DNA from: Cryomorphaceae bacterium | GTDB lineage: Bacteria; Bacteroidota; Bacteroidia; Flavobacteriales; Schleiferiaceae | Assembly: GCA_017858515.1 (NCBI GenBank) | Contig: JAFMBM010000007.1 | Span: 17,962-81,961, forward strand | Reading direction: 5' to 3' | Length of the DNA stretch: 64,000 nucleotides | Part shown: piece by piece, positions 10,325 through 54,351 of the stretch | How the letters are laid out: each line of letters begins with the position of its first letter | Position numbering within the stretch: the first letter of the stretch is position 1 | The notes under the pieces: generated by a model | Told to the model about the DNA's origin: nothing | The model's database searches: none | What the model saw: only the letters and a program-made list of their open reading frames with translations | Position numbers and translations under genes: made by a program

Positions 10325-12091
10325 CTAAGCCTCAGCCTCTATCTTATTAAATTGCATCTCATACAAACGGTGGTAGGCACCCTCTTTCTGAATGAGTTCA
10401 GCGTGATTGCCTTCCTCGATAATCTGACCGTGATCCATTACAAGAATACGGTCTGCCTTCTGAATAGTGGCCAGTCTATGTGCAATAATGATTGAGGTTC
10501 TGCCTTCGGTCAATTTATCTATGGCTTTTTGAATAAGCAATTCTGTATGCGTATCAATTGACGAAGTTGCCTCGTCGAGAATAAGAACGGAAGGCTTGCT
10601 CACATAAGCTCTCAAGAATGCCAACAATTGCCGTTGTCCGGAAGAAAGACTTCCACCCCTCTCTCCTACTCTAAACTCCCAAGATCCTGGCAGTTTATCC
10701 AAGAGTGTGTCCACGCCAATCAGTCGCGCCGCTTGGTTCAACTCCTCTATTGGAATGGGACTTCCAAGGGTAACATTCTCTTTTATCGTATCTGAAAACA
10801 AGAAGACATCTTGCAATACGAGAGCCATCTGACTCCGCAGTCCTTCTAAAGTATAATCGCGAACATCTACCCCATCGAGCAAAATCTGTCCTTTTTGAAT
10901 ATCATAAAAACGATTCACCAAATTGATAATCGTAGATTTTCCTGCTCCTGTAGTTCCCACAATAGCAAGGGTTTCCCCTTGTTTTATCTTCAAGCTTAAG
11001 CCCTTGAGTATCCATTCATTGGGCAAGTATGAAAACCAAACGTCTTTGAACTCTATTTCACCCCTAATTTCGGTAGGATTCAACTCGCCATGGTCTTGAA
11101 TTTTCTCTTCCTGATCGAGTAATTTCAGCACCCTTTCAGAGGCAACCATTCCCATTTGCAAGGTGTTAAAGCGGTCTGCCAGTTGACGTAAAGGCCTAAA
11201 CAGCATATTAATAAAGATGAGTATAGCTGTTAAATCTCCAAAAGTAACTTGGCCTCCAATAGCCGCTGAAATACCTCCATACCAAACTGCAAGACCAATA
11301 GATACAGCAGACAAGACCTCGATAATAGGAAGGAAAATAGAAAAATACCAGATAGAGCGGATGTTGGCATCCATATGGGACTTATTAATTGCTTTAAAGC
11401 GGATGAGTTCAGCGTCTTCGCGATGAAAAGCTTGAACGATCATCATTCCACTCAAATGTTCTTGAACGAAAGCATTCAATCTCGCTACCTGATTGCGCAC
11501 ATCTTGGAAAGTAACTTTGATGGCTCTTTGAAACCAGCGTGTTGCGAAATACAACAAGGGAACAACAGATAAACTAATGAGAACCAATTTCCAATCGAAG
11601 AAATAGAACATGGCTCCTATCATCACCGCAATCTTGAAAAGATCTCCAAAGATCACGAGCAAACCCTCTGCAAAAATATCAGCTATGGTTTCGATATCTG
11701 AAACGGCTCGGGTAACTAAGGTTCCAATGGGAGTTTTATCGAAAAAGGACAGGCGCAGCTTTATGAGTTTCTCGAATAGCAGCACTCGAATATCGCGTAT
11801 CACACTTTGGCCTAGATAATTGGCAGAATAAATAAAGGCAAACTGCAAAATGGTTTCCACCAAAAGGAGAAAGACCATGAGCAAGGTGTAATTCAGCAGA
11901 CCCGCTGCGTCAGGAATCATTACAAAATGATCGATGGTGTATTTAATCAATATGGGTCTCGTGGTTCCTACCGCACCCAGAAGAATAGTTAGTAAAATAC
12001 CTCCATAAAAAAGCTTTTTATAGGGTTTTGTATAGGCTAACACCCGTCTCAATAGCTTGAGATCAAAGGCCTTTCCACTTACTTCAGACAT
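10325..12091 (-). CDS. ABC transporter, fused permease/ATPase (MsbA/MdlB-like exporter)
   Basis: Walker A GTTGAGKST, signature SLSSGQRQLLAFLRA, Walker B VLILDEATSSID, N-terminal six-TM domain. Confidence 0.95.
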   Translation of the reverse strand: MSEVSGKAFDLKLLRRVLAYTKPYKKLFYGGILLTILLGAVGTTRPILIKYTIDHFVMIPDAAGLLNYTLLMVFLLLVETILQFAFIYSANYLGQSVIRDIRVLLFEKLIKLRLSFFDKTPIGTLVTRAVSDIETIADIFAEGLLVIFGDLFKIAVMIGAMFYFFDWKLVLISLSVVPLLYFATRWFQRAIKVTFQDVRNQVARLNAFVQEHLSGMMIVQAFHREDAELIRFKAINKSHMDANIRSIWYFSIFLPIIEVLSAVSIGLAVWYGGISAAIGGQVTFGDLTAILIFINMLFRPLRQLADRFNTLQMGMVASERVLKLLDQEEKIQDHGELNPTEIRGEIEFKDVWFSYLPNEWILKGLSLKIKQGETLAIVGTTGAGKSTIINLVNRFYDIQKGQILLDGVDVRDYTLEGLRSQMALVLQDVFLFSDTIKENVTLGSPIPIEELNQAARLIGVDTLLDKLPGSWEFRVGERGGSLSSGQRQLLAFLRAYVSKPSVLILDEATSSIDTHTELLIQKAIDKLTEGRTSIIIAHRLATIQKADRILVMDHGQIIEEGNHAELIQKEGAYHRLYEMQFNKIEAEA

Positions 12092-33815: not shown

Positions 33816-33986
33816 TCAATAAAATTTATCCGTATCAAAGCTAATAGATAGAAAATTAAATCCAACTACACCTTTATAAAAGGCAACACTTGTATCGGGA
33901 AGCGGCACACCACCATTTATTTATTGAATTCTTCTATCCCTACCTTCTCTCAATAAAATCAAACAAACTCTCTGGACAGAATAATA

Positions 33987-34017
33987 TTTTTAAATCTAAC
34001 TCAGTTCGATTTAAAAA
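33987..34017. promoter_or_regulatory. 31-bp near-perfect palindrome upstream of the arginine decarboxylase-like gene
   Basis: TTTTTAAATCTAACT-C-AGTTCGATTTAAAAA; arms of 15 bp with one mismatched pair (33997/34007). Confidence 0.65.
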
Positions 34018-34073
34018 TTAACATCAATGTAACTGAGTTGGATGTACTTTTGCCACCCACAACAACTGCAATC

Positions 34074-35465
34074 ATGCGCAATAAATACATCGACTTAATA
34101 GATCAGACCTTTGTTTGGCCTCAAGAAGAATTTCAATTAGATGGCGAATCCCTTATGTGGAATGGCATCTATCTAATGGATATCATCAAGCAATACGGAA
34201 CCCCATTAAAGTTATCGTATGTGCCAAAGATTAGCCAGCAGATTCAAAAAGCGAAAATGCTATTCAATGTTGCTATGGCGAAGGCAGATTACAAAGGCAA
34301 ATACAACTACTGTTATTGCACGAAGAGTTCGCACTTCTCATTTGTGTTGGACGAAGCCCTTCGGAATGAAATTCATTTAGAAACCTCTTCCGCATTCGAC
34401 CTCAATATTATTGAGACATTAATAGAGGAAGGAAAAATTGGTAAAAAGCAATTCATAGTGTGTAATGGATTTAAACGTCCGCAATACATAGAGAACATTG
34501 CTCGAATGGTAAATAATGGCTTTGAAAATACCATACCCATTTTAGACAACAAACACGAATTGAAGCAATACGAGGAGTTGATACCGGGCAAATTAAAAAT
34601 GGGAATTCGTATTGCCGCAGAGGAAGAGCCCAAATTTGAATTCTACACCTCTCGTTTAGGCGTTGGTTACAAAGACATTGTTCCTTTCTACGAGCAGCAA
34701 TTGAGAAACCACGATCGCTTTGAGCTGAAGATGTTGCACTTCTTTATTAATACAGGCATAAACGACACGGCTTATTATTGGAGTGAATTGCTGAAATGTG
34801 TGAATGTGTATTGCGACTTAAAGAAAATCTGCCCTAGCTTAGACTCATTAAACATCGGCGGCGGATTCCCCATTAAAAACTCGCTCTCTTTTCAATATGA
34901 CTATGCCTATATGGCAGAAGAAATTATTGCACAGATAAAGGCTGTTTGCAATGAGAAAGGAATAAAGGAGCCCCATATTTTTACTGAATTCGGCAGCTAT
35001 ACTGTTGGAGAGAGTGGTGCTATTCTCTTTTCGATAATGGATCAAAAAAAGCAAAACGATAAAGAGAATTGGAACATGATAGATGGATCTTTCATGACAA
35101 CCCTTCCGGATGCATGGGCTATAAACAAGCGCTTCATGCTCTTGGCAGTAAACAATTGGAATAAAGAGTATGAAAGGGTATTACTAGGCGGACTCACCTG
35201 CGATAGCGATGATTACTACAACTCGGAGCAGCATGCCAATGCCATTTACCTGCCCAAGTTCGACTCTGAACAAACTCAATACATTGGCTTCTTTAATACT
35301 GGAGCGTATCAAGACTCCTTGGCAGGATATGGCGGAATTCAACACTGTCTATTGCCGGCGCCTAAGCACATTGTAATTGACGAAGACGACGATGGAGAGA
35401 TCCGCACCCGACTCTTTGCGAAGGAGCAGAGCTACAAGAGCATGTTGAAGATACTTGGCTATTAA
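34074..35465 (+). CDS. Arginine decarboxylase-like PLP enzyme (alanine racemase/ornithine decarboxylase fold)
   Basis: MRNKYIDLIDQTFVWPQEEF...YGTPLKLSYVPKI...KYNYCYCTKSSHFSFVLDEAL...LNIGGGFPIKNSLSFQYDY; matches the Bacteroidota SpeA-annotated family. Start moved from 34038 to the ATG at 34074. Confidence 0.8.
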   Translation: MRNKYIDLIDQTFVWPQEEFQLDGESLMWNGIYLMDIIKQYGTPLKLSYVPKISQQIQKAKMLFNVAMAKADYKGKYNYCYCTKSSHFSFVLDEALRNEIHLETSSAFDLNIIETLIEEGKIGKKQFIVCNGFKRPQYIENIARMVNNGFENTIPILDNKHELKQYEELIPGKLKMGIRIAAEEEPKFEFYTSRLGVGYKDIVPFYEQQLRNHDRFELKMLHFFINTGINDTAYYWSELLKCVNVYCDLKKICPSLDSLNIGGGFPIKNSLSFQYDYAYMAEEIIAQIKAVCNEKGIKEPHIFTEFGSYTVGESGAILFSIMDQKKQNDKENWNMIDGSFMTTLPDAWAINKRFMLLAVNNWNKEYERVLLGGLTCDSDDYYNSEQHANAIYLPKFDSEQTQYIGFFNTGAYQDSLAGYGGIQHCLLPAPKHIVIDEDDDGEIRTRLFAKEQSYKSMLKILGY

Positions 35466-36456
35466 TACCAGAAATAAAAAGAATATGAAAGGACCTGTTT
35501 CACAATTTATTGAGCATCATTATAGGCATTTTAACGCGGCTGCATTAATGGATGCTGCTAAAGGTTACGTTACCCATTTGGTAGAAGGTGGAAAGATGAT
35601 GATCACCCTCGCAGGTGCTATGAGTACTGCCGAACTTGGTGTAAGTCTCGCCGAAATGATTCGCCAAGGTAAGGTGGATATCATTTCTTGTACGGGTGCA
35701 AATTTGGAGGAAGATTTAATGAATCTCGTTGCACACAACAGCTACAAACGCGTCCCCAACTACCGCGATTTAAGTCCTGCCGAAGAAAGAGCCCTCTTAG
35801 ATGATGGCTTCAATCGTGTAACCGACACTTGCATTCCAGAAGAAGAAGCATTCCGCCGTTTGCAGAAGCATATCTACAAACTATGGAAAGATGCTCAAGA
35901 CGCTGGAAAGCGATTCTTTCCGCATGAGTATATGTACCAAATGTTGCTTTCAGGTGTTTTGGAACAGTATTACGAAATCGACCCAAAAGACAGTTGGATG
36001 TTGGCAGCAGCCGAGAAAAACCTACCTATAGTAGTTCCAGGATGGGAAGACAGCACCATGGGCAACATCTTCGCCTCCTACTGCATAAAGGGAGAACTTC
36101 AAGCCTCTACTGTTAAAAGTGGAATTGAATATATGGGCTATCTCGCCGATTGGTATGTGAAGAATAGCGAAGGAAAAGGAGTTGGATTCTTCCAAATTGG
36201 GGGAGGAATTGCGGGTGATTTTCCGATTTGCGTAGTACCCATGCTATACCAAGACATGGAAATGGAACAAATCCCCTTCTGGTCTTATTTCTGTCAAATC
36301 TCCGATAGCACAACCAGTTACGGTTCTTATTCGGGTGCAGTTCCGAATGAAAAAATCACTTGGGGAAAATTAGATATCGACACCCCAAAATTTGTCGTCG
36401 AAAGTGATGCTACTATTGTTGCTCCGCTTATTTTTGCGTGGATTCTGGGAATGTAG
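35455..36456 (+). CDS. Deoxyhypusine synthase family protein
   Basis: KMMITLAGAMSTAELGVSLAEMIRQGKVDIISCTGANLEEDLMNLVAHN...PIVVPGWEDSTMGNIFA...GKGVGFFQIGGGIAGDFPICVVPML. Confidence 0.93.
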   Translation: MAINTRNKKNMKGPVSQFIEHHYRHFNAAALMDAAKGYVTHLVEGGKMMITLAGAMSTAELGVSLAEMIRQGKVDIISCTGANLEEDLMNLVAHNSYKRVPNYRDLSPAEERALLDDGFNRVTDTCIPEEEAFRRLQKHIYKLWKDAQDAGKRFFPHEYMYQMLLSGVLEQYYEIDPKDSWMLAAAEKNLPIVVPGWEDSTMGNIFASYCIKGELQASTVKSGIEYMGYLADWYVKNSEGKGVGFFQIGGGIAGDFPICVVPMLYQDMEMEQIPFWSYFCQISDSTTSYGSYSGAVPNEKITWGKLDIDTPKFVVESDATIVAPLIFAWILGM

Positions 36457-36473: not shown

Positions 36474-36773
36474 ATGGAAAAGAAAAGAGTAATCGTAGAT
36501 TACAAAAACATCACTGAGGACTTATTAAAACTCCTCACAGATACCTATCCTTATGGATATGAAGATTTTGTGGTGAGATTTAAAAACGCCAAGGGAGAGA
36601 ATGTTCAATCCATTCCTCTCGAAACCGACGACACCAAGTATTTGGTAAAAGTTGGAATTGAATTGGACAAAGTGGTTGAGGCTTTCCTCGACGACGATGA
36701 CGATGGCGATGACGATAGCGGAGAGAAAGATTTAGATGTTTCAGATTCAGAGGTAGACGATTCAGACGATTAG
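36474..36773 (+). CDS. Small conserved protein with acidic C-terminal tail
   Basis: MEKKRVIVDYKNITEDLLKLLTDTYPYGYEDFVVRFKNAKGE...DDDDDGDDDSGEKDLDVSDSEVDDSDD. Confidence 0.75.
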   Translation: MEKKRVIVDYKNITEDLLKLLTDTYPYGYEDFVVRFKNAKGENVQSIPLETDDTKYLVKVGIELDKVVEAFLDDDDDGDDDSGEKDLDVSDSEVDDSDD

Positions 36774-53106: not shown

Positions 53107-53442
53107 ATGGGCTTAACAAAAACCGATCTTTTTACGGAAAGACAGAACCAGCTCGCTAAATGGGCCAAGGTTATGGGTCATCCTGCACGAATTGCCATTA
53201 TCGACTTTCTTCTCCACACCAAAGCCTGTATTAATGGCGATCTAGTAGACGAACTAGGCTTGGCACAAGCTACCATCAGTCAGCATTTACGTGAGTTGAA
53301 GGAGGTAGGACTAATACAAGGCACCATTGAGGGAACGCGAGTAAATTATTGTATCCACACTGAAAACTGGAATGCCATGTCGGATGCTTTTCACGAACTA
53401 TTTGTGCATTCTCCTTCCGACAAGAACCGCCAATGCTGCTAA
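53107..53442 (+). CDS. ArsR family transcriptional regulator
   Basis: LAKWAKVMGHPARIAIIDFLLHTKACINGDLVDELGLAQATISQHLRELKEVGLIQGTIEGTRVNYCI. Confidence 0.92.
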   Translation: MGLTKTDLFTERQNQLAKWAKVMGHPARIAIIDFLLHTKACINGDLVDELGLAQATISQHLRELKEVGLIQGTIEGTRVNYCIHTENWNAMSDAFHELFVHSPSDKNRQCC

Positions 53443-53460
53443 TCCAATAAAACAACAATT

Positions 53461-54351
53461 ATGAAATCAACTGAAAGAGAACTAAAAGAGATTGTCCGTC
53501 AGAAGTATGCTGAAATAGCTCAAAAAGGCATAGACGAAAATGCCAGCTCATGTTGTGGCGCTACACCCAATAGCAATAAGGTCTATTCGATTATGATGGA
53601 TGATTACTCTGAACTAAAAGGCTATGCAAAAGAGGCCGACTTAGGATTGGGTTGTGGACTTCCGACTGCCTTCGCTCAGATTAAAAAGGGCGATACCGTC
53701 ATTGATTTGGGCTCCGGTGCAGGCAATGATTGCTTTGTTGCAAGGCACGAAACGGGCCCAGAAGGCAAAGTAATTGGCATAGACTTTACGCCCATTATGA
53801 TTCAAAAAGCAAGAGAAAACGCCGAACGCCTTGGCCTTCACAATGTTGAATTTCGAGAGGGCGATATTGAGCATATGCCTGTAAATGATGCCATTGCCGA
53901 CGTGGTGGTGAGCAACTGTGTTCTAAATCTAGTTCCCAATAAAAGCAATGTCTTAAAAGAAATCTTCCGTGTCTTAAAGCCAGGTGGTCACTTTAGTATT
54001 TCTGACATTGTTTTGGTTGGACAACTTCCTGAGGGCTTGAAAAACGATGCGGAAATGTATGCTGGCTGTGTGGCCGGGGCTATTCAGAAAGAAGAATACC
54101 TTCAATTCATTAGCGATACGGGTTTTGAAAACATCGCCTTACTCAAAGAAAAAACCATCCTTCTACCAGATGATTTACTTACGCACTATCTCAACGAAGA
54201 AGAAATAGCACAATTCCAAAAAGGGAATACGGGTATTTACAGTGTGAGTGTTTTTGCCCGTAAACCAGGCAATAAGCCCAAGCTAAACCTTGAGATGTTA
54301 TCGGAGGTAAAGTCTCAAAATCAATGTGCTCCTAATTCAGGCTGCTGCTAA
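53461..54351 (+). CDS. arsM: Arsenite S-adenosylmethionine methyltransferase
   Basis: SSCCGATPNSNKV...LGLGCGLPTAFAQIKKGDTVIDLGSGAGNDCFVAR...VVSNCVLNLVPNKSNVLKEIFRVLKPGGHFSISDIV; C-terminal cysteines. Confidence 0.95.
   Translation: MKSTERELKEIVRQKYAEIAQKGIDENASSCCGATPNSNKVYSIMMDDYSELKGYAKEADLGLGCGLPTAFAQIKKGDTVIDLGSGAGNDCFVARHETGPEGKVIGIDFTPIMIQKARENAERLGLHNVEFREGDIEHMPVNDAIADVVVSNCVLNLVPNKSNVLKEIFRVLKPGGHFSISDIVLVGQLPEGLKNDAEMYAGCVAGAIQKEEYLQFISDTGFENIALLKEKTILLPDDLLTHYLNEEEIAQFQKGNTGIYSVSVFARKPGNKPKLNLEMLSEVKSQNQCAPNSGCC

Follow-up and report, generated by a model that had tools for sequence, protein, structure and literature searches.

Paired 17-bp palindromes at an exact 33-bp spacing precede a decarboxylase gene in many Bacteroidota and are predicted to form a single-target operator

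What could be the role of a long palindrome situated just ahead of a presumed decarboxylase operon? A first-pass annotation of the window (the whole 64,000-nucleotide stretch of Cryomorphaceae DNA analysed here) had remarked on a 31-bp palindrome whose 15-bp arms match in all but one pair, accompanied by a second copy of its core 33 bp away, and had proposed that the two represent either a dual-site operator or a hairpin of the 5' UTR. Both elements are present as described. The palindrome, TTTTTAAATCTAACTcAGTTCGATTTAAAAA, occupies 33987-34017 and can be extended to 16-nt arms at 33986-34018, which are 94% complementary; its core returns as ATGTAACTGAGTTGGAT at 34027-34043, 33 bp downstream and ahead of the ATG at 34074. 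The chance expectation of the full 31-mer in the window is 0. The features of the locus are as follows:

33987..34017, no strand: 31-bp near-perfect palindrome, composed of site I and AT-rich arms
33994..34010, no strand: predicted operator site I, 17-mer ATCTAACTCAGTTCGAT, about -62 to -46 from the predicted transcription start
34011..34026, no strand: spacer of 16 bp, constant in length and unconserved in sequence
34027..34043, no strand: predicted operator site II, 17-mer ATGTAACTGAGTTGGAT, about -29 to -13 from the predicted transcription start
34044..34051, + strand: predicted sigma-A -7 element TACTTTTG (consensus TAnnTTTG; from sequence and PMC9723704), abutting site II
34074..35465, + strand: arginine-decarboxylase-like PLP enzyme of the alanine-racemase fold, 463 aa, the presumably regulated gene
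35485..36456, + strand: deoxyhypusine-synthase (DHS)-like protein, second gene of the presumed operon
36474..36773, + strand: acidic 99-aa protein, function not assigned

The N-terminus of the decarboxylase, MRNKYIDL, is conserved, and the same start is found in relatives. Its nearest counterparts are the biosynthetic arginine decarboxylases, yet it scores well below the equivalog cut-offs. The 99-aa protein has a strongly acidic tail and matches neither Pfam nor NCBIfam; it comes after the decarboxylase and DHS-like genes in many relatives, and 37 of the loci described below have it near the decarboxylase. A connection of the operator with polyamines would follow from the identity of the regulated gene. 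In a congeneric genome (L037/L038, G001:C237), the decarboxylase match is split into two pieces that lie on separate stretches; one piece contains a TGA, and the gene looks broken or misassembled. Elsewhere in the window (53107-54348), an ArsR-like HTH protein is followed by what, judged by eye, resembles an arsenite methyltransferase gene; this arrangement is unconnected with the operator.

A scan of the host genome had been suggested together with the palindrome. At one mismatch or less, the pattern ATCNAACTNAGTTNGAT finds sites I and II only, both in the window, where the remaining matches all carry three mismatches, and in the entire 2.76-Mb host genome (92 contigs). Matches with two mismatches are about as numerous in the genome as chance would have it (24 in all versus 20 for a reversed control).

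To be meaningful, the first-pass annotation had argued, the palindrome should be conserved in close relatives. Footprinting was done on about 100 decarboxylase homologues with their upstream DNA, taken from related genomes that are mostly metagenome assemblies. The pair is kept at orthologous promoters with its exact spacing: without any alignment, it is seen at 33 bp upstream of the start codon in dozens of homologues, and of 96 non-redundant upstream regions, 47 contain it at exactly 33 bp according to a symmetrised matrix (shuffled sequences, 1/1920). As a check against over-fitting, a matrix was then trained with Flavobacteriales only. It recognized the pair in 21 of its 24 training promoters and, of the held-out promoters, mostly from Bacteroidales, in 25 of 39. 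Control windows drawn from the same loci gave 5 positives in 1920, and the 24 Flavobacteriaceae promoters gave none. The 25 held-out matches at 33 bp compare with 0 at 32 bp and 5 at 34 bp. What relatives retain is the pair of 17-mers; the AT-rich outer arms of the 31-mer are unconserved except for one flanking A/T. The consensus is of the type ATCYRASTNASTTRSAT, two 17-bp palindromes 33 bp apart from centre to centre, upstream of decarboxylase orthologues.

The pair occurs in Flavobacteriales outside Flavobacteriaceae and in Bacteroidales. In the protein tree, it is present in most of the clade that joins the family of the window with Bacteroidales, plus two further clades. At several loci that were scored negative, a candidate pair of lower strength lies 200-800 bp upstream, e.g. 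L017, L023, L026, L057, L059 and L079. Two upstream regions harbor two 33-bp pairs each, about 150 bp apart: L150 in G011 (10828-10877 and 10983-11032) and L045 (781-830 and 933-982). In L131/L015 (G016), the pair reaches the decarboxylase start codon, which its downstream site (AAGTAACTCATGCGGAA) overlaps. For the Flavobacteriaceae genes, reading the upstream DNA by eye revealed no obvious replacement motif. At nine such loci devoid of the operator, a gene of the Lrp/AsnC family lies about 3-3.5 kb downstream (in L091, at about +2.9 to +3.4 kb), and it is possible that the regulator has been replaced there.

The strongest constraint within the 17-mer falls on matrix positions 1, 2, 4-6, 8, 10, 12, 13, 16 and 17, and the matrix half-sites are of C/G, C/T, A/G, A composition. 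Many loci have outer half-sites ATCC/GGAT and inner ones AWGTA/TACWT, so that the entire 50 bp could be read there as one larger palindrome of four half-sites; in pooled counts, the difference between inner and outer half-sites is a trend and no rule. A Lentimicrobium-like locus (L058) carries three palindromes, ATTCGGGCATCCCGGAT, ATCCGGATCATCCGGAA and ATCCGGCAGCACCGGAA, at 33-bp steps about 130 to 30 bp upstream of the decarboxylase start. They are shifted, of ATCCGG type, and precede a TATATTTG box; to judge from the letters, they may be a diverged, three-site form of the operator. A third site at 33-bp steps was considered as a general feature and rejected, as it is not general among the loci.

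How many promoters does the pair mark in one genome? We used pattern searches with mismatches allowed. At three mismatches or less, the pair pattern has exactly one match in 25 of 29 motif-positive genomes, always at the decarboxylase promoter, and the reversed pattern has none in the same 29. The other four genomes have weaker pairs at the same promoter. Across 396 genomes of the phylum, the only additional pair matches are one in G383, again at the decarboxylase gene, and one inside an open reading frame. Single-site matches elsewhere in the genomes are few, mostly lie within open reading frames and look like chance. We therefore reject a wider regulon, since searches with single sites and with pairs return the decarboxylase promoter alone.

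The position of the pair relative to the promoter is less uniform. The sigma-A -7 box of Bacteroidota is TAnnTTTG, at -12 to -5 (PMC9723704). In the window, TACTTTTG adjoins site II and predicts a transcription start near 34056. A TAnnTTTG is present between site I and the ATG in 27 of 46 motif-bearing loci, against 2.1 expected, and most Bacteroidales have their predicted box just upstream of site I. Depending on lineage, the predicted box starts at about -54, -21, -15, +12, +18, +39 or +51 relative to site II. The pair is rigid inside yet floats over the predicted promoter, which is what a cooperative operator for several repressor dimers would look like; a classical activator would not tolerate it. 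With boxes at +49 to +57, the pair comes before the -33 region, where repressors sit less often; this class fits repression less well. The box positions also fall into two series with steps of about 33 bp (-54/-21/+12 and -15/+18/+51). Counted over distinct positions, this periodicity is suggestive and not significant (p about 0.06).

We consider it probable that the pair is the operator of an unlinked, cooperatively binding repressor with a single target. The dual-site operator envisaged by the first-pass annotation gains from the conservation of the pair at exactly 33 bp in orthologous promoters. According to our model, the two palindromes form one composite operator and each of them would accept one dimer. 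Spaced by three turns, the dimers would occupy one face of the helix and bind cooperatively, as a tetramer or a dimer of dimers. In the window, the predicted -7 box directly follows site II, and site I would lie just upstream of the -33 region. With protein on the pair, RNA polymerase would therefore be blocked and the decarboxylase/DHS-like operon repressed. That the protein represses rather than activates, and that it binds as a cooperative oligomer, we infer. Repression would most plausibly be relieved or reinforced by the level of polyamine or arginine, a ligand suggested by the regulated gene.

Several other explanations have to be weighed. The region is AT-rich and relatives do not keep the outer arms of the 31-mer, as might be expected of a palindrome without function that arose by chance; conservation throughout the phylum, exact spacing, validation on held-out promoters and one pair per genome leave this explanation with practically no credit. 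An RNA element of the 5' UTR, either a hairpin or a riboswitch that senses polyamines, has more in its favor. Folded as RNA, the palindrome reaches -6.3 kcal/mol (z -5.1), site I is able to pair with site II in a 95-nt fold (z -3.2), and Bacteroidales probably transcribe both sites. However, complementarity of paired positions, within a site as well as between sites I and II, does not exceed the level expected of independent halves. A selected RNA helix would show more, and half-sites that vary independently are rather what a DNA-bound dimer predicts. In addition, both sites of the window lie upstream of the predicted transcription start, the predicted -7 box of Flavobacteriales being downstream of the sites, and no match to Rfam was obtained. 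The 5' UTR hairpin of the first-pass annotation is left unsupported by these results, and we find an RNA element very improbable.

If the bound protein were instead an activator of the same gene, with two dimers needed upstream of the promoter, the lineages with predicted -7 boxes at +39 to +57 from site II would have the pair at suitable distances. Elsewhere, the pair overlaps the predicted box or, in Bacteroidales, sits between box and start codon, positions that do not allow an activator to work as usual; activation is in our opinion unlikely, though it is the most serious of the alternatives. The pair might also belong to the SOS repressors of Bacteroidetes (LexA-like proteins of the S24/HTH_3 type), in which case the polyamine operon would be damage-inducible. 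These bind CTAA-N5-TTAG (PMC8565304), and positions 3-6 and 12-15 of our 17-mer (CYAA-N5-TTRG) share this dyad geometry within the same phylum. But our motif extends further, with a main half-site other than CTAA; the exact dyad has no match in the window, so neither site is one. SOS regulons have many targets and the pair has one, the consulted part of the same source reports no fixed 33-bp pair for SOS repressors, and it describes SOS regulators as absent from Bacteroidales, where the operator is well conserved. We hold the SOS explanation to be quite unlikely, only marginally ahead of the RNA element.

Returning to the predicted repressor, the geometrically nearest system that has been described is that of the NrdR boxes, in which a single tetramer binds two palindromes of 16 bp; these are separated by 15-16 bp and have their centres an integer number of helix turns apart. 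The boxes overlap the promoters of ribonucleotide reductase genes, and their repressor has very few targets (PMC12051234). Our pair likewise has palindromes about three turns apart, here of 17 bp with a 16-bp spacer, and in most lineages it lies at or near the predicted -7 box. Unlike NrdR boxes, it has another box sequence, palindromes of odd length and a decarboxylase instead of ribonucleotide reductase as its target. NrdR itself can be excluded (TIGR00244 in 0 of 24 Bacteroidota genomes, with controls positive in 9 of 14), and for these reasons the operator is not part of an NrdR regulon.

Which protein, then, binds the pair? In 20 motif-positive genomes, no regulator gene is linked to the operon within 3-20 kb. 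We ruled out families that are absent from near-complete motif-positive genomes. Multi-site operators of Lrp/AsnC proteins have regularly phased palindromes about three turns apart before amino-acid-related genes. This resembles our pair, but PF01037 is absent from G000, from its 99% complete congener G004 and from G024. ArgR (PF01316) occurs in only 1 of 24 genomes, G383. GntR (PF00392) is missing from G005, G014, G015, G017 and G024, and PadR (PF03551) from G024 and the 100% complete G383, both of which have clear pairs. As to MocR, the part of PMC5320631 consulted contains no polyamine-decarboxylase regulon, and GntR domains are lacking in several motif-positive genomes. TetR proteins are found in 12 of 14 genomes and MarR proteins in all 14. 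Among the subset of paralogues compared, a TolC-like gene follows the shared TetR at the loci read, for MarR the largest shared group stays within one family and lies beside an acyl-CoA-dehydrogenase-like gene, and no orthologue group of either kind fits.

By analogy, HTH_3/XRE proteins would be our first choice as a candidate class. Phage-type repressors of this class, such as lambda cI, use operators of 17 bp that are symmetric about a central base and are occupied by cooperating dimers; the lambda operators are about 24 bp apart, unlike the 33 bp here. The SOS repressors discussed above carry HTH_3 as well, and the dyad they bind aligns with ours.

Having one target and no linked gene, such a regulator is hard to find by methods based on gene neighbourhood, and the literature searched contains no described regulator or motif for this decarboxylase gene of Bacteroidota. 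The conserved operator makes the prediction testable. The pair is a precise DNA bait that should fish out the predicted repressor directly, and it is present in cultured and uncultured members alike, including Alistipes, other Bacteroidales and relatives from Cryomorphaceae and Schleiferiaceae. Taken further, and much more tentatively, Bacteroidota as a whole may possess an undescribed tetrameric repressor that senses polyamines or arginine, is encoded away from its sole target and recognizes a four-half-site operator with the three-turn geometry of NrdR. If this is true, then the pair represents an NrdR-like, single-purpose feedback switch for polyamine synthesis.
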